61,760 bases of DNA, from positions 1-61,760 of the forward strand of contig CANRGA010000004.1 in NCBI GenBank assembly GCA_947630055.1. The letters run 5' to 3'. The DNA comes from an uncultured Bacilli bacterium (GTDB lineage: Bacteria > Bacillota_I > Bacilli_A > RF39 > UBA660). Shown here piece after piece: positions 10,778-60,633 of the stretch (position 1 is its first letter; every line of letters starts with the position of its first letter). The position numbers and the translations under genes are program-made. The notes beneath the pieces were generated by a model. It searched no databases. It had not been told where the DNA came from and saw nothing but the letters and a program-made list of their open reading frames with translations.

Positions 10778-11617
10778 TTAATTACCTACTAATAAACCAG
10801 TAATAAAATATAGAGTATCAAATAAATAATCAAAATTTATTTGATTTGAATATGGAGCAGTAATTTGGTAATTTTGCCATAATTTAATAAGTCGCTCATT
10901 TGATTTCATATTATTTAATTGTTCTTTTATTTTTTCTGTATTTAATTCAGTTTCTCTATATTTAAAAGTATTTCTAATTGCCAAAATAAGATTTTTAAAA
11001 TTTAGTTTTTCTTTATTATCATTTAGCAAAACATAAATATCATAAAAGTCTTTCATTCTCGTATTATAAATATCTCTATCTATAATCGTTTGATACTTTT
11101 CAGCAATAATAGTTTCTAATGTATATGCAAAAACTGATATTTTTTTATCTTCAAAGTGTGAAGTATACATATATTCAATTTCTCTTGGAGTAATTATATC
11201 ACCTGTGGTAAGTTCTATTGCAAGATATGTTTTTAAATTATCCATAGTTGCTAAAATGTTTATTTTAAATCCTCCATATTCGCTTTCTTGCCTTATATCT
11301 TTAACACTTTCAATTTCAAATTTTATTCCATCATCAACTTTTGTACTTAATATTTCTGTTATTATTTCTATTACATTATCTTTCTCAAGTGGCAAACTCT
11401 TTAATGTAGCGTCCATATCCTTTGTCATTCTTTCATCATCACCAATAATAGAAGAAAGTAATAAGCCACCTTTTAAAATAATATTATGCTTGTATTTACT
11501 TTTAGAAAGTCTTTCTAAAATATGCTCAAAAAAATACATTTGATATAATTGAGCTGATACATTACTATTGCCTTTTGCTTTTTTTGAAATAATACTTTTT
11601 AATTTACTTTTGTTCAC
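10778..11617 (-). CDS. abiEii: AbiEii-type nucleotidyltransferase toxin
   Basis: This is the toxin of a type IV toxin-antitoxin pair linked to phage abortive infection. The nucleotidyltransferase signature is seen as LKGGLLLSS followed by RMTKDMDA (residues about 44-70), and the second conserved block as TLETIIAEKYQTI and RMKDFYDIYVLL (around 185-215). The 279-residue length is usual. Its GTG start overlaps the antitoxin TAG by one base, so synthesis is coupled. The toxin is downstream of the antitoxin, as in known abiE operons. Confidence 0.9.
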   Translation of the reverse strand: MNKSKLKSIISKKAKGNSNVSAQLYQMYFFEHILERLSKSKYKHNIILKGGLLLSSIIGDDERMTKDMDATLKSLPLEKDNVIEIITEILSTKVDDGIKFEIESVKDIRQESEYGGFKINILATMDNLKTYLAIELTTGDIITPREIEYMYTSHFEDKKISVFAYTLETIIAEKYQTIIDRDIYNTRMKDFYDIYVLLNDNKEKLNFKNLILAIRNTFKYRETELNTEKIKEQLNNMKSNERLIKLWQNYQITAPYSNQINFDYLFDTLYFITGLLVGN

Positions 11618-12207
11618 TATAGCAACACCTCCATATATTCACTTACTTTCTTTTCAATTTTCATAATTTTAGCATACTTTGTAAGTTGACTTAAATTTTT
11701 ATTTTTGTTTTTAGCATAATCTTTAAGTGCCTTTGAAAATATTTCACCATCAATTTTATTTTTATTTTTGATAATATCACAAATAGTTCTCTCAATATCA
11801 TATACTTTAATTTTCATTCCAAAAGGAGATTTCATTTCTATTACTCCTAAATCTAAAATATTTCTATTTACATAATTAAGGTTTACATTTTTTTGCTTTT
11901 GTAAAATACCACTATAACCATAAGGTAAAGTAACATTATATATTAATGGATTGCGTTCAGATAAATTATGAAGATATAAAGCGGTTGCCATTGAAAATCT
12001 TGCATTTTTACTTTTAGAAGCAATTTTATAGTATTCATCTGCAATATAATTCGGAAGTCCATAATAGCCTTTTGAAATTCTTAATAATTTTCCTTTCTTT
12101 ACCATATTTGTTAAAAATCTTCTTTCAATTCCATTATTTACGACTTCCCTAGTCGTAATATAGCCTTTATTTTTTTCAACAATTTTTAAGATTCTTTCAT
12201 AATTCAT
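11617..12207 (-). CDS. abiEi: AbiEi antitoxin (transcriptional repressor)
   Basis: The antitoxin of the AbiE pair. Residues 1-50 form the winged-helix domain (GYITTREVVNNGIERRFLTNMVKKGKLLRISKGYYGLP in outline), followed by a C-terminal antitoxin domain (SMATALYLHNLS, DIERTICDII). Known AbiEi proteins repress their own operon through inverted repeats, and an imperfect repeat lies just upstream of this gene at 12212-12267. The ATG has an AAGGAACG site. Confidence 0.9.
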   Translation of the reverse strand: MNYERILKIVEKNKGYITTREVVNNGIERRFLTNMVKKGKLLRISKGYYGLPNYIADEYYKIASKSKNARFSMATALYLHNLSERNPLIYNVTLPYGYSGILQKQKNVNLNYVNRNILDLGVIEMKSPFGMKIKVYDIERTICDIIKNKNKIDGEIFSKALKDYAKNKNKNLSQLTKYAKIMKIEKKVSEYMEVLL

Positions 12208-13519: not shown

Positions 13520-13542
13520 AAAAAAGAGTTTTGAACTCTTTA
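13520..13542 (-). terminator. Intrinsic terminator of the surface protein gene
   Basis: An 8-bp stem AAAGAGTT/AACTCTTT with a 3-base loop is followed on the minus strand by a run of T, about 60 bases after the surface protein stop codon. Confidence 0.7.
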
Positions 13543-13603
13543 TATAAAATTAATAATTATTCAGAAAAAGTTAAGCTAATGGAATTGTTTTTGCAAAAAT
13601 CTT

Positions 13604-14923
13604 CTATTCAATGCCTATTCTAAATGGATCATCTAACGTGCCTACCCCGCTAATATCCAAGTCAAACTTCAGATAAAATACTGGACGCACAGGAAGCTCA
13701 CTTCCCACATTCCAACCACCATCGACGTGGCCTCTCAAAGAAACGGACCAAGCATAGAAGTCGTAATCGGTTAGCCCAATACGCGACATAGTCCAATCCG
13801 CACCCCAACCACGTTGTGATGATAACCAACTTACTACAAAATCTTCATTTTTTGCCTCATCTAAAATATAATAATGTTTTGATATCATACAATTATATAT
13901 ACTATTACTTTCAAAACTACTACAATAATCTGTTAAAGTCAATAATCCTATATTTGCTGTTACATTATCGGTTAATTCGTTTTCTCTTTTTACTAATGCT
14001 TCTGATTCTAATTTTGATATTTCTTTTATTTTTTCACGTTTTTGATCATCATTTAATCCACTTTCATAATCATTTTCTTCAGTTCCATATATCGCATCAG
14101 ATAATTCATGATACTTTTCTAGTTCTTTAGGGGTAAATATGTTTTGATTTTCCTCATCAAAATCAATATTGGATATATCGCCATATTTCCATTCTGAATT
14201 TACTATCATTTCTTTTAAATCTATTGATAAGGTATTATAAAATTCACTATTTAAATATTGGTATAATTCACTTTGCGGCCATTTGATATCACTAGAAGAA
14301 TCGCTATTCCATGCAATACTATCATTTGCAGGAACATTTTTTACAACTTTTAATAATCCATCTTCTGTTACTCCAATTATTCGATATAAATCTTTTCCAT
14401 CTTCATTACAGTCTGCACCTAGGCATATATAATTGTTTTTTACTGTATCTTCTCTATCAAATACTCCAGCATCATGATTACTTATTATTGCATTTCCTTG
14501 ATATCTATATAAACCATATACTAATTCGTCTGTTAGTTTACCATCTGATTTTTCTTTTAATATATCTACAATAGATTCTTTTTTTATATCAAAATACAAT
14601 GTGCAATAGACTGTTTGAGTTGTAGTTAATGTTGCTTTTCCATCAGCAAATACTATTACATCTTCTACTAATGCACCATTATTATCTGTACATTTTGCTT
14701 CTTTATATACATATTCTTCACCTGGCCATGTATTACTATCATATTCTTCATAACCAGTTTCATTTTGAATCATTATGGCAAATGATTTATCTTTATTTAC
14801 TATTTCTTTTAATCTAACTTCAGGAAGATCATTATATTTTGACTTCATTATTTTATTACTTATAAATAACACTAAAAATATTCCTGTAATTACTATTAAA
14901 CATTTTAAATATTTTCTTTTCAT
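13604..14923 (-). CDS. Membrane-anchored surface protein with DUF6273-like C-terminus
   Basis: A 439-residue protein with one membrane segment (residues 8-24) and no other, so the rest is expected outside the cell. Residues about 45-115 look like a beta-sandwich ending in TTTQTVYCTLYF; this is followed by an EDTV-YICLG segment and a DLYRIIGV domain. The C-terminal 75 residues (WTMSR, AWSVSLRG, LPVRPVFYLK, GTLDDPFRI) resemble DUF6273-like domains common in gut Bacillota. Codons for residues about 363-437 are far more GC-rich than the rest. Transcription starts at a promoter with an eight-G spacer. Function is unknown; adhesion or recognition would fit. Confidence 0.75.
   Translation of the reverse strand: MKRKYLKCLIVITGIFLVLFISNKIMKSKYNDLPEVRLKEIVNKDKSFAIMIQNETGYEEYDSNTWPGEEYVYKEAKCTDNNGALVEDVIVFADGKATLTTTQTVYCTLYFDIKKESIVDILKEKSDGKLTDELVYGLYRYQGNAIISNHDAGVFDREDTVKNNYICLGADCNEDGKDLYRIIGVTEDGLLKVVKNVPANDSIAWNSDSSSDIKWPQSELYQYLNSEFYNTLSIDLKEMIVNSEWKYGDISNIDFDEENQNIFTPKELEKYHELSDAIYGTEENDYESGLNDDQKREKIKEISKLESEALVKRENELTDNVTANIGLLTLTDYCSSFESNSIYNCMISKHYYILDEAKNEDFVVSWLSSQRGWGADWTMSRIGLTDYDFYAWSVSLRGHVDGGWNVGSELPVRPVFYLKFDLDISGVGTLDDPFRIGIE
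13625..13832 (-). other. GC-rich 3' cassette inside the surface protein gene
   Basis: Bases 13681-13830 count 78 G/C out of 150 (52 percent), while the flanking part of the same gene is about a quarter to 30 percent. The change is abrupt on the 5' side of the codons, near GGTTGGGGTGCG, and fades into the stop codon. The block encodes the WTMSR to VRPVFYL region, the presumed variable face of the domain. Confidence 0.8.
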
Positions 14924-14975
14924 AATCTTATCCTCTCTTTATATGTCGTATCATTGCACTTTATTTTATAAGATT

Positions 14976-15003
14976 ATTATATAATACCCCCCCCGAGAGT
15001 CAA
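14976..15003 (-). promoter_or_regulatory. Promoter with an eight-G spacer, copy 1
   Basis: Read on the minus strand, the -35 TTGACT is at 15003-14998 and the -10 TATAAT at 14981-14976, a 16-base spacing. The spacer contains eight consecutive G (14994-14987). The start codon of the surface protein is 53 bases downstream, with a GAGAGG ribosome binding site. Adding one G would restore the ideal 17-base spacing. Confidence 0.8.
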
Positions 15004-15071
15004 GTACCACGTATTAAATTTTTTTGTATTAAATTGGTATTATTTGCCAATAATAAAAATGATTAAAGTAG

Positions 15072-35596: not shown

Positions 35597-36013
35597 TTAT
35601 AATTTATAATATTTTTTTATTAATTCTGCTTCTTTTTTTAATCCTCTTTTTTCAAGTTCTTTAACAAAAACTGGCCATGGTGGAATATTGCTCATATAAG
35701 TTCCACCTGGACCGGTATATAAGCCTCCGCTTGGACCGGTATATAAACCTCCTCCTGGGCCGGTATATAAACCTCCTCCTGGGCCGGTATATAAGCCTCC
35801 TCCTGGGCCGGTATATAAGCCTCCTCCTGGGCCGGTATATAAGCCTCCTCCTGGACCAGTATATAAACCTCCTCCTGGACCGGTATATAAGCCTCCATCT
35901 GGGCCTTCATATGCGCCTCCTCCTGGGCCGGTATATAAGCCTCCTCCTGGACCGGTATATAAGCCTCCTCCTGGGCCGGTATAATTATTTCTAGGCCATT
36001 GGTTCTTTTTCAT
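35597..36013 (-). CDS. Gly/Pro/Tyr-rich tandem repeat protein
   Basis: A protein with a short basic start ([10 protein letters not shown]), thirteen copies of the octapeptide YTGPGGGL, and a non-repetitive end ([28 protein letters not shown] in outline) that looks like one amphipathic helix pair. There is no signal peptide. The start overlaps the end of the ImmA-Fic gene; ATG 36013 or ATG 36019 fits the GAGGAG site. It is the third gene of the XRE / ImmA-Fic module. Function unknown; a target or scaffold for the Fic enzyme is possible. Confidence 0.7.
35698..35992. repeat. 24-bp coding minisatellite, thirteen units
   Basis: Tandem 24-bp units, one octapeptide each, with only scattered base changes. 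Most third-position changes are GGGCC/GGACC and AAGCC/AAACC, and the diverged unit encodes YEGPDGGL. Such high identity suggests recent expansion or gene conversion and likely copy-number variation between strains. Confidence 0.9.
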
Positions 36014-37385
36014 TATCATCAATCTCCTCATCAATTTCATCTACAAATAAATATCTATTTGTTTCAATCATCGTATTAATTATTCGCTTTTCAATAAACA
36101 TAATAAATGGTACTGGATCATTGTCTACATCCATTTTTGATAAAGCAGCATAATATTCTTTTTTACAATTATTATCAATATATATAGGTGGTATATTTTT
36201 TTTACTTAGTAGCCAATTTAATATGGCTCTTGAAATTCTACCATTACCATCTCTGAAAGGATGAATAATAACAAATTTATATGTAAAATAAGCAACTTGC
36301 TCTATATATTTATCTATATCATATTTATCAATATTTGCAATAAAAAATTGTAATTCTTTATCAAGTTTATTAATTTCATGACTTATTTCATAATAAGAAA
36401 CTGGCTGTATAGTACCACGATTTAATATTGCAGTTTCATCTCTATATTTTCCATTATCTTCAGGAAACGGAACATATTTATAAAGTAATGAATGCAATTC
36501 TTTACATTTTTTTAAAGATATTTCATCTTTTGTCGTTATCACATATTTTTGCAATTCTAAATTTCCAAGAGTCATAACAATTTCTTCATTAGTGCTAGAA
36601 AAAAATCGACTATTTTTACCATGATAGTTTAAATCTGCTAATATATAATTTAATTTTTTTCTATCAATATAATCACCTTCAAGTTTATTATCATTATAAA
36701 TATAATTTTGCAAAAATTTTTGTCCAGTATAACTATTAATATTTACCATCAAAAAACTCATTGAATTAACAACATTCGATAATAATTTACTATCAATTTT
36801 ACTTTTTATTAACTCTTGTCTTTTTGCTGATACACCATATTTTTTCATTCTTTTACGTAAAGATTCTGAAGATATATCTCCATCTATTAAATTTAAATCA
36901 TAGGCTATCCTATTTAAACAAGAATAAAAACTTACTCCAAAATATTCCGATATAATTGTAATATTTTCAAAATCAATAAATCCTTTAGAATTTTTATATT
37001 GCTCACAAATAAGTTTTAATTCGTTGGTAGGCATTAATAAATAACTAGCGAATGAATTGGCATATAATTCTATTTTTTTATTTGACTTTTTCAAACATTC
37101 AATACAATCATTTTTTCCTTTTTCCTTATTTAAATCTTTTATGTAATGACAATATTCATGAGCAGCTGTAAATCTTTGTCTTTGCCAAGTACTATTTGAA
37201 TTAATACCTACAATAGTACAATTGTCATCATCATTAATTATAACCCCATCTAAATTTTCAAAACTTTTTAATACAACAAACACACCTGAGTTGTTAAGAA
37301 TTTTAAATGGATCAATTGGAAAAGTCAATTCATTATTTCTTTTTAATTTTTCTAATACTGTGTTAGCTAATTCTTCTGGTGTCAT
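35991..37385 (-). CDS. ImmA/IrrE metallopeptidase fused to a Fic domain
   Basis: The N-terminal third is an ImmA/IrrE-type zinc peptidase with HEYCH at residues 76-80 and the third-ligand helix [14 protein letters not shown]. The C-terminal third is a Fic domain with HPFRDGNGR (375-383), needed for AMP transfer. NDNKLEG near residue 233 resembles the Fic inhibitory helix, with Asp in place of Ser/Thr. ATG 37385 has a GAGTGAT site; the HTH gene ends just upstream. The peptidase likely cleaves the HTH repressor, as in other Xre-ImmA pairs, and so couples a stress signal to Fic activity (inferred). Confidence 0.85.
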
Positions 37386-53484: not shown

Positions 53485-53540
53485 AAAAAAATTAATTTAT
53501 TTTGCTTATTTAATAAAACAAAAATAAATTAATTTTTTTT
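53485..53540 (-). terminator. Long AT hairpin terminator after the phase-variable acyltransferase gene
   Basis: On the minus strand an AATTAATTTATTTT arm pairs with its complement AAAATAAATTAATT across an 18-base loop, followed by seven T. It covers the stop codon of the gene at 53529. Confidence 0.75.
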
Positions 53541-54587
53541 CTTAAATATTCTGCAAACATAATTTAATATAATTCCACTAATAATGCTTGATAAAACTGC
53601 AAGCAAAATATTAACTTTATAACTCGAAGTAAGTAGCATCATATTAAATGTACCTTTAACATAAATCATATGGCAAATATAAATATCAAAAGAATATTTA
53701 TCTGAAAAATCTAAAATTCTTTTTATGATTTTATATTTAGTTAGTAATTTTCCTATTAAATAGTAAAAATAAAACAAAGTTAAAGCTTGAAAAAAGCAAC
53801 TATAATTAATTCCTAGATTTACTAAATTAATTAATAATATACCCTCAATATTAGGCTTTATATTATATCTTAAAATATACCAAAAATAAATTACTCCAAA
53901 TAATAATATTGCATTTACTATAGATAAACTTATTTTACTTACTAATTTACTATTTTGAATCTTTTCTTTTAAAAGTGGTAATAGAAAAAATCCAATAAAA
54001 TAGCAATTAATCCTATTTGCAGCAAAATATGAACGAAAGGCATAACCGAAAATCTCAATTAATATCATCCAAATAATAACATATAATACATATTTTATTT
54101 TAGAATCTTTTGATTTCTGTTTTAAATAATTTCTTAAATCATAAAAAAGTGGCGTTAAAATATAACAAAATATAATATATGGAATAAACCATAAATGATT
54201 AACACCATGAAATGTATTAGAAAAAGTTAAAAGCGAAAAAGCACTACCAATTGTAATTGTCCCAGGATTTCTAAAATAATAGATCGGTATAATAACAAAT
54301 ATTACATATACATAATAATCAATTAATATTTTTTTAAAATTTTTAGAAATAAATTTAATTCTTGAAGTGTCTTTTTCAAATAAATCTTTTTTACAGCCAT
54401 ATAAATAGCCTGACAAAATCAAGAAAATTTGAACACCTACAGCTAAAAAATTACCTAATATTCCAACTTTAATACTGTAACCACCATAGCCAATTTGTTC
54501 AAATATATGACAAAATATTACCATAAACATTGCTATAAAACGTATCAAACTCAAATTATAATCTTTTTCTTTATTTATTTCTTTCAT
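53529..54587 (-). CDS. Acyltransferase family 3 membrane protein under a switchable promoter
   Basis: A 352-residue ten-span O-acyltransferase. YNLSLIRFIAMFMVIFCHIFEQ at the N-terminus (in outline) has the catalytic His, followed by QIFLILSGYLYG and HLWFIPYIIFCYI. It is a single gene between a strong terminator and a promoter with an eight-G spacer. It probably decorates a surface polysaccharide or teichoic acid with an acyl group, and its expression is likely on in some cells and weaker in others. Confidence 0.87.
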   Translation of the reverse strand: MKEINKEKDYNLSLIRFIAMFMVIFCHIFEQIGYGGYSIKVGILGNFLAVGVQIFLILSGYLYGCKKDLFEKDTSRIKFISKNFKKILIDYYVYVIFVIIPIYYFRNPGTITIGSAFSLLTFSNTFHGVNHLWFIPYIIFCYILTPLFYDLRNYLKQKSKDSKIKYVLYVIIWMILIEIFGYAFRSYFAANRINCYFIGFFLLPLLKEKIQNSKLVSKISLSIVNAILLFGVIYFWYILRYNIKPNIEGILLINLVNLGINYSCFFQALTLFYFYYLIGKLLTKYKIIKRILDFSDKYSFDIYICHMIYVKGTFNMMLLTSSYKVNILLAVLSSIISGIILNYVCRIFKKKN

Positions 54588-57961: not shown

Positions 57962-59125
57962 TTAAATATTATTTGGAAAATTTAAATTGCTTGTTTTAAA
58001 TTTTTCACGAACAACTTTGTAACTACTATATTCGTATAATATCACTTTTGGCAAATCACGACTTAAAAATAATGATATACCTTCAGTACTTGAATATGCT
58101 CCAACATTTTTAAAAACAAAAATGTCATCTATTTTTAATTTACGACAAGTTATATTTTTTACTAAAAAATCATTTATCGTACATAATGAACCACATAAAT
58201 TATATGTTTCATTAACATCATCTTTATGAGGTAATAATTCATAATGTGGTATTTTCATTCCCATTGTCTGACCATAATATACTAAATGATTAATACCACC
58301 ATCCATAATTACAAAATTACCATATTTATTAGTTTTCATATCAACCACTTTAGTAAGATAAGATCCACAAGATGCCGCAATACTTCTACCTATTTCTAAT
58401 GTTACTTTTTTATTTTTTATCTTATCAAGAATTACTTTAAAACTCTCCAAAAATTCATCTTCAGCAAATTCTTCACCTTGATAATAATATACTGGCAAGC
58501 CAGTACCAAATTCAATTTCTTTTACTTCAAAATTCAATTCTTTTTCAATTTTTGCAGTTAGTTCTATCAAATAATCTATTTCTTTTTCTAATCTTTTTAA
58601 AGAATGTTTTTGTGTTCCAGAGAAATATTCAATACCATCAATAATAATAAAATCTTTATTATAAATATTAATTAATTCAAATAATTCATCTTCATTAATA
58701 CCAAATTGATTACCACTAGTTAATCTAGGTAAAACATGTAAACAACAATTATATTTTTGCGATAGTTTTAGTAAAAGATTATATTGATTAATTGATTCAA
58801 TAGTATATTTTGGCAAACTACCATGATTTTTTATTATATTTTCAATTGTTTCTTCATCTTTATAAACACCAGATATAACCATTTTTTCAGGATTAATATT
58901 TAGTTTATCGCAAATTTCATATTCACCTGGAGAACATATTTCAAATCGTGAAACACTATTTTCTAAATGTTTAGCAATAAACGTATTAGCTTTTACTGCA
59001 TAAACCAAATCATATTTTGAACCAAGTCTCTGCTTTAAATATTCTACTCTTTTTAAAAGAACATCAGTATCATAAACATAACTAGGTGTACCATATTCTT
59101 TAACTATTTTATTATAATCTATCAT
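57962..59125 (-). CDS. PLP-dependent decarboxylase-fold enzyme (LysA family)
   Basis: A fold-type III PLP enzyme of 387 residues. Lys45 in VYAVKANTF should bind PLP; EIEFGTGLPVYY and EIGRSIAASCGSYLT bind phosphate and cofactor; LCGSLCTINDFL is the C-terminal active-site loop with the catalytic Cys. It is shorter than most diaminopimelate decarboxylases and sits between an adenylating enzyme and a carrier protein, overlapping the former by four bases. It may make the amino acid or amine that is loaded on the carrier. Normal dlt operons lack such a gene. Confidence 0.85.
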   Translation of the reverse strand: MIDYNKIVKEYGTPSYVYDTDVLLKRVEYLKQRLGSKYDLVYAVKANTFIAKHLENSVSRFEICSPGEYEICDKLNINPEKMVISGVYKDEETIENIIKNHGSLPKYTIESINQYNLLLKLSQKYNCCLHVLPRLTSGNQFGINEDELFELINIYNKDFIIIDGIEYFSGTQKHSLKRLEKEIDYLIELTAKIEKELNFEVKEIEFGTGLPVYYYQGEEFAEDEFLESFKVILDKIKNKKVTLEIGRSIAASCGSYLTKVVDMKTNKYGNFVIMDGGINHLVYYGQTMGMKIPHYELLPHKDDVNETYNLCGSLCTINDFLVKNITCRKLKIDDIFVFKNVGAYSSTEGISLFLSRDLPKVILYEYSSYKVVREKFKTSNLNFPNNI

Positions 59126-60633
59126 ACTTTTTCACCTACTCCTGCAATTAACTTTTTACGATCGATTTTTCCGTTCTTTGTCATTGGGAAAACATCCTTT
59201 TTTATAAGTTTAGTAGGGATCATATATACTGGTAAAACTTCACTTAATTTAGCATGTAATTCTTTTTTATCAATATCGCCAATGTAAAAACCATAAAGGC
59301 GAGATTTTTCTTCATCAAATATGCAACAACTTCTAATTACTTCAGGAAAATCCATCAAAGCTTTATCTATTTCTTCAAGTTCAATTCTATGCCCCATATA
59401 TTTTATTTGAAAATCTTTACGCCCCGTAAAAACTATTTCATCAAATTCGTTTATATATCCTAGATCTCCTGTTCGATAAATCATATCCAAATAATTATTG
59501 TTATTAGGATTTTGCATAAAATGATTTCTTGTTTGTTCTTCATTATTGTAATATCCTAATCCTAAAGCTGTTCCAGCTACACAAATTTCACCTGTTTTAT
59601 TTCTATCATCAATAATTTCATTTTTATCATTTAGTAATATTACTCTTTCATTTGGAAAAGGTAATCCTACTGGAATTTTTTCTTCATAATTTCTATTTCT
59701 ATCTATAATATGATATAAACAATTACAAGTTATTTCCGTTGGACCATAAATATTTACAAATGTAGTATCTGGTAATTTGTCCATCCACATTTTAAGATGC
59801 TTTAAAGGCATTACTTCGCCACTGAAAAGGATTTTTTTAACTGAAGTAGGTACTTTGTAGTCAAGACCATGAAAAGTTGTAATTAAGCATAAAGCGGATA
59901 CTGCCCAAGTTAATGTATTAACATTATGCTCACAAATGTAATCTAACAAAAGTGCTGGATTAGAAAAATATTTTTTAGGGATAATGACAAGCGTAGCGCC
60001 CATTTTAATCGCTGAAAATATATCTTTAACTGAAACATCAAAATCAAATGGAGCTTGATTTCCTATTATATCGTTTTCGGTAAAATTAAAAAGACATGTA
60101 AAAACATCAATAAAATCTATAACAGAGCGATGTGATATAACTACACCCTTAGGAACTCCAGTTGAACCTGAAGTGAAATTTACATATAATGGATCACAAT
60201 CAATGTGTTTATTGTAACAAACATTTAAAATATTATTATCTATTTTGCCTTTTTTTAAATCGCCAATTTTTACTACTTCTAAATCTTTAAAATACTTATT
60301 TGCTTCATCATAGTATTCAGAATTAGTAATGACTATTTTAGATTTTATTGTTTCTTTAATTTGATTTATTCTTACTTCAGGTAATTCTGGATTAATTAAC
60401 GAATAAAAACACCCAGCATAAATTGTACCAAAAAAAGCAATTAAAGTATCTATCCCTTTATCCATAAATACTATAACTGGTTCATTAAATTGTTTTTTAC
60501 CAATATATGATCCAACAATTTTACTATAATTGTTTAATTCACTATAATTTATCTTTTTATCTTCTTCAATTATGGCAATTTTATCTTTAAATTTTTTACT
60601 TGAATTTTCTAAATAATCTATAACATTATACAT
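59122..60633 (-). CDS. DltA-like amino acid adenylating enzyme
   Basis: A 503-residue AMP-forming ligase that activates an amino or other acid and loads it onto the carrier protein. Core motifs are NFTSGSTGVPKGVV (P-loop), FVNIYGPTEIT (motif A5), YRTGDLGY (A7) and a C-terminal NGKIDRKKL (A10 lysine). The size and gene order match DltA, but D-alanine specificity is not proven, and the neighbouring PLP enzyme suggests another substrate. It heads the operon. Its start has a GGGTGA site and its promoter has an eight-G spacer. Confidence 0.88.
   Translation of the reverse strand: MYNVIDYLENSSKKFKDKIAIIEEDKKINYSELNNYSKIVGSYIGKKQFNEPVIVFMDKGIDTLIAFFGTIYAGCFYSLINPELPEVRINQIKETIKSKIVITNSEYYDEANKYFKDLEVVKIGDLKKGKIDNNILNVCYNKHIDCDPLYVNFTSGSTGVPKGVVISHRSVIDFIDVFTCLFNFTENDIIGNQAPFDFDVSVKDIFSAIKMGATLVIIPKKYFSNPALLLDYICEHNVNTLTWAVSALCLITTFHGLDYKVPTSVKKILFSGEVMPLKHLKMWMDKLPDTTFVNIYGPTEITCNCLYHIIDRNRNYEEKIPVGLPFPNERVILLNDKNEIIDDRNKTGEICVAGTALGLGYYNNEEQTRNHFMQNPNNNNYLDMIYRTGDLGYINEFDEIVFTGRKDFQIKYMGHRIELEEIDKALMDFPEVIRSCCIFDEEKSRLYGFYIGDIDKKELHAKLSEVLPVYMIPTKLIKKDVFPMTKNGKIDRKKLIAGVGEKV

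Follow-up and report, generated by a model that had tools for sequence, protein, structure and literature searches.

A GC-rich gene end that probably descends from a diversity-generating retroelement in an uncultured Bacilli bacterium, and a many-template retroelement architecture in its genus

The window gene, its GC-rich end and its insertion site

The stretch of DNA analyzed here (the window, 61,760 nucleotides) is contig C4 of a 1.19 Mb genome assembly in 60 contigs, which is about 90% complete and whose named relatives in protein searches are uncultured Bacilli from 'Lapin' metagenomes. The gene of interest codes for a protein with an N-terminal hydrophobic helix, a DUF6273-like middle (E 1.6e-8) and a variable C-terminal end, and belongs to a family of putative targets of diversity-generating retroelements (DGRs). 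In the following list, C28 and C30 are two other contigs of the same genome.

13604..14923, minus strand: DGR-family target gene, 439 aa (open reading frame; DUF6273 match, E 1.6e-8; 28 family matches in its own genome)
13682..13789, minus strand: core of the variable region (VR), from ATGTCGCG to CGTCCA (codon alignment with the C28 target; alignment with the C30 template)
13604..13681, minus strand: GC-rich conserved 3' tail, outside the template span (85% nucleotide identity to the C28 core target)
14976..15003, minus strand: promoter TTGACT-CTCGGGGGGGGTATTA-TATAAT, whose spacer contains a G8 tract (28-nt sequence that recurs in the genome)
13521..13543, minus strand: terminator-like AT-rich hairpin 3' of the gene (read from the sequence)
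13531..15024, approximate, no strand: single-gene insertion between a methyltransferase gene and gerA (site empty in congeners; junctions approximate)

The original prediction had reported 78 G or C among the 150 bases at 13681-13830, and a direct recount gave exactly this number in a contig of 24% GC overall. When all 150-nt windows of the contig are compared, they hold 36.3 G/C on average (sd 7.9), which places the block more than 5 sd above the mean. One other stretch in the 61.8 kb exceeds it, an open reading frame of GPGGG repeats at 35.6-36.1 kb. At codon positions 1, 2 and 3, GC content is 0.39, 0.28 and 0.10 in the gene body, compared with 0.53, 0.44 and 0.44 in the tail; third-position GC (GC3) is 0.47 in the variable core versus 0.10 in the body. 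The shift is therefore mainly one of codon choice and its boundary is intragenic, bearing out the sharp boundary inside the gene that had been described. The GC excess reaches the stop codon (about 13604-13840), slightly past the limits first given. No tRNA was found within the window, and the sole match of an Rfam scan was a PGK RNA about 5 kb from the block with no overlap. As for the other GC peak, the only one besides the block, it lies at 35597-36040 and consists of LYTGPGGG repeats.

Closest relative G017 and several other congeners have the methyltransferase gene and gerA directly adjacent, with the site empty. The window target, which carries a promoter and a terminator-like hairpin of its own, is thus an inserted single-gene unit of about 1.5 kb. 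Its product may be a surface protein, with the block as the exposed end. A C-type lectin fold is usual, although not universal, for DGR variable domains. A search of the PDB with a profile of the target family returned no match, and a structure prediction from eight sequences had a mean pLDDT of 37.6, too low for a fold search. Elsewhere in the window, an AbiEii/AbiEi-type toxin-antitoxin pair occupies 10778-12207, and relatives of the AbiEi gene adjoin the same methyltransferase gene in three congeners.

The 28-nt promoter sequence has 19 exact copies in the genome, preceding many of the targets of this family, and its reversed sequence, used as a control, has zero matches there. On the plus strand its G8 tract reads as C8 at 14987-14994. 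The position of the tract between the -35 and -10 elements makes slipped-strand switching, and with it a phase-variable surface regulon, possible; switching is unproven because tract length is nearly uniform among the copies (the same in 19 of 20, with one copy of six). A near copy of the promoter lies 5' of an acyltransferase gene (53529-54587, C8 at 54626), and a related one 5' of an AMP-binding, dltA-like gene (59122-60633, C8 at 60710).

Retroelement loci and targets in the same genome

The absence of a reverse transcriptase (RT) and of a template repeat, noted in the original prediction, holds for the window itself. Searches of the genome for these elements and for near copies of the block, which had been proposed as checks, found them on other contigs. 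DNA search of the genome gave one near copy of the block, on C28, beside an RT, and three RTs are present in all, on C28, C43 and C3. The C43 locus comprises a target gene with its VR, a GC-rich hairpin, a template, a MutS_I-like open reading frame, an Avd-like open reading frame, the RT and an open reading frame of 96 aa. When its VR is compared with its template over 112 sites, the 22 differences fall exclusively at template adenines: 22 of 36 adenines are changed (G in 15 cases, T in 6, C in 1) and none of the 76 other bases. This locus is a textbook DGR. The template of the C28 target sits on C30, and since the two contig ends share an exact 77-nt overlap, the order of the locus can be read as target, Avd-like gene, RT, an open reading frame that we take to code for an AlbA_2-type protein, and template. 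Here 16 of 37 template adenines are changed in the VR versus 1 of 68 other bases (p=5e-8), a pattern that identifies C28 and C30 as parts of a second DGR. The two loci are of one kind, with RT, Avd-like and MutS_I-like proteins, a structured template RNA and a core target.

The RTs match RVT_1 above its cut-off and a phage RT family, their best solved relative is PDB 8ub7 ('Reverse transcriptase'), which we take to be the BPP-1 DGR enzyme, and the motifs IGNMTSQ and YMDD can be read in them; their assignment to the DGR class is by homology and these motifs and not by a DGR-specific RT model. The Avd-like open reading frames match the NCBIfam family DivGenRetAVD (NF033474) with E values of 1.3e-12 on C28 and 4.1e-10 on C43, and bAvd with 8e-7 and 9e-8, scores that fall under the curated cut-offs.

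The target family has 28 matches in the genome, and 22 target genes were read. Among them, GC3 of the variable core is highest, at 0.66, in a core target and falls as low as 0.05 in others, which we read as decay after uncoupling from a template. In the targets on C18, C6, C26 and C13, too, most of the departure from a template is at adenines. A remote target on C3 agrees with the C43 template at 71 of the 76 sites that are not adenines, counted from the alignment; this would be expected from templating in trans or if the entire 3' end had been copied recently. Similarity between the C3 and C43 targets continues past the template into the gene end, as whole-gene copying or conversion would produce.

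Of all its paralogs, the window protein is closest to the C28 core target, with 63% amino acid identity over the matched 320 residues. In the codon alignment of the two genes, nucleotide identity is 70-87% in blocks of the body downstream of a divergent N terminus, 55% in the VR core and 85% in the conserved end. The hypervariable stretch coincides with the template span, and in the alignment the VR core is the counterpart of the sister template on C30. Codons of the form NNC, expected from template AAC, are enriched in the window VR (8 of 38 versus 17 of 353, p=1.2e-3). Against the C30 template, its nearest, the window VR differs at 23 of 37 adenines and 25 of 68 other bases (p=0.011), and these 25 differences indicate that C30 is not its direct source. 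The adenine check that had been suggested for copies of the block is thus positive at the C43 and C28 loci and weakly positive for the window copy, since the exact template of the latter was not found. A search of the assembly with an IUPAC pattern (up to 3 mismatches), by DNA similarity and with a template-RNA model yielded no exact template for the window VR, and the same kinds of search found template cassettes of this type in the genome on C30 and C43 alone. Because adenine-masked alignments favor the DGR hypothesis, counts were redone with symmetric scoring.

A GC-rich hairpin or cruciform, present after the stop codons of the C28 and C43 core targets, is absent by reading after that of the window gene. 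Such a hairpin is needed for efficient homing in the DGR of Bordetella phage BPP-1 (PMC3240598). Given its absence here, we do not claim the window gene as an active target.

Template RNAs in the genus

Of 38 genomes of the genus, 17 gave matches to a covariance model of the conserved segment 3' of the template. There were 77 in total, with 13 in G008, 12 in G031, 10 in G037, 7 in G027, 6 each in G003 and G023, and 2 in the genome of the window. Among 193 genomes of the family, weak matches alone were found outside the genus. The matching RT occurs once in most genomes that have the segment; the genome of the window has two loci, no matching RT was detected in G037, and in a few genomes it is broken or split. 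The cassette RNA has a 9-bp stem, AGGTAATCTTG, closing over a template of about 120 nt, and a 7-bp hairpin. Covariation argues for this structure: 100% of cells are paired and four pairs are changed on both sides, while shifted controls are 42-51% paired. By reading, a TATAAT-like sequence precedes the cassette and a terminator-like hairpin follows it. The template cassette of the congeners thus has the sequence features of a structured RNA gene that stands by itself. Even when 46 distinct cassette sequences are compared, the one on C30 is still the best match for the window VR.

Different targets in G008 are best matched by different templates, and pooled target/template differences, scored symmetrically, fall at 218 of 384 template adenines versus 125 of 868 other positions. 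Targets give 64 matches in this genome, which may include split matches, and its single matching RT is a count of the matching class, other RT classes being possible there. The 13 templates of G008, compared with their own consensus, differ at 120 of 548 adenines versus 73 of 947 other positions (p=1e-14), a divergence to be read with the facts that variable codons are adenine-rich by design and that a VR copied back into templates would look alike.

Several template cassettes of G008 adjoin DUF3800 genes (L184, 7880-11150 of G008:C6; also L187), and template and DUF3800 gene look duplicated together. Tandem or clustered cassettes, four within 1-4 kb, lie upstream of the RT in two other genomes (L113 and L114; G032:C21, 3015-7003, and G025:C11, 9087-10135).

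Origin of the block and comparison with known systems

The GC-rich block is very likely the VR of a DGR target gene that was copied away from its retroelement. Its composition follows from templates of 46-48% GC in a genome of 24% GC, to which mutation of A to any base adds G and C. According to this model, RT and Avd would reverse-transcribe a template RNA, placing random bases opposite its adenines, the resulting cDNA would replace the VR of a homologous target, and RT and Avd would serve several templates in trans. Diversified targets would be duplicated elsewhere as whole single-gene units of promoter, gene and terminator. The window gene is probably such a dispersed target, uncoupled from its template and still carrying template-derived GC-rich codons. 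With its exact template missing from the assembly and no GC hairpin downstream, it is most likely an ordinary remote target that is diversified rarely or no longer.

Three causes had been offered for the block, and of these the DGR target is favored by the RT, Avd and templates on other contigs, while plain cassette exchange and horizontal replacement are not. Shuffling of the 3' end among paralogs or silent copies by homologous recombination, without reverse transcription, could draw on a family of 28 matches in the genome, and whole-gene copying or conversion would produce similarity of the kind that runs past the template in the C3 and C43 targets. Such exchange leaves unexplained the adenine-only differences at C43 and the nearly adenine-only ones at C28, long identical blocks common to two VRs are absent beyond the constant template bases, and a bank of partial 3' copies without promoters was not observed, so that we regard it as improbable. 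Whole-gene duplication and dispersal of targets have clearly also happened. Replacement of the 3' end by DNA of a GC-rich organism would account for a sharp intragenic boundary, but the same type of block ends paralogs across the genome and the genus, a source is visible in the templates within the genome, and a phage origin finds no match to the block in 50,697 phage records; this explanation we hold to be very improbable.

In a closer competitor, the window gene would still be live, a remote target on which a template missing from the assembly, or missed in the searches, acts in trans. Its variable core keeps a high GC3, which makes its origin look recent, the C3 target indicates that templates act on, or get copied to, distant genes, and congeners retain many dispersed templates. 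Yet no template for the window VR emerged from the pattern, DNA or RNA-model searches, the hairpin of both core targets is missing, and the missing 10% of the genome cannot explain roughly 20 other targets that also have no template. Continued diversification of the window gene is therefore unlikely, although it is the strongest of the alternatives to an uncoupled target.

Judged by the literature searched, the many-template architecture of the genus is new, with a single RT detected, as many as 13 scattered templates and dozens of targets. Previously described DGRs are compact cassettes that have a single template (in rare cases two) and a few targets. We tentatively propose, at somewhat less than even confidence, a distributed DGR with one RT per genome, many scattered autonomous template-RNA genes and dozens of single-gene targets, in which templates mutated at adenines (or overwritten by VRs copied back) would form a diversified archive and retired targets such as the window gene would be its fossils. 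This gut bacterium, whose genome is small, devotes dozens of genes to a single hypermutation system, and its congeners retain many templates in the form of separate RNA genes, with one enzyme detected to serve them. If the system acts in trans, as its sequences suggest, it becomes testable how templates find distant targets, whether templates are rewritten and why targets retire. More generally, a GC-rich 3' end in an AT-rich paralog family can mark DGR descent without a nearby reverse transcriptase.

In the literature searched, with many subscription papers outside reach, no many-template DGR was found, and cases of remote targets, of trans action and of two templates were. The BPP-1 DGR shares with the present loci the RT and Avd, a 3' VR altered at adenines and, with the core VRs, a GC-rich hairpin; its single template and single target share a locus, unlike the dispersed targets here and the many autonomous template genes of the congeners (PMC3240598). 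The DGR of Treponema denticola is similar in its one RT, mostly remote targets (up to seven) and leftover targets of replaced templates; its isolates have one template per genome, as against as many as 13, together with dozens of targets, in a single genome here (PMC4891356). Thiohalocapsa PB-PSB1 likewise has several DGR loci per genome and some targets best explained by trans action, but there incomplete DGR loci are spread by transposons and targets have MoxR or STAND partners, unlike the stand-alone template cassettes and single-gene target units described here (PMC10907252). More than one template for one system with several target genes is also found in Stenotrophomonas sp. SKA14, with two templates and six VRs compared with up to 13 dispersed templates of conserved RNA structure in this genus (PMC6642488).

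The third RT of the genome, on C3, has an Avd of its own (NF033474, E 2.5e-21; L008, 864-2324 and 4453-6240 of G000:C3). It lies near a different, possibly formylglycine-enzyme-like target and could represent a second kind of DGR alongside that of C43 and C28.
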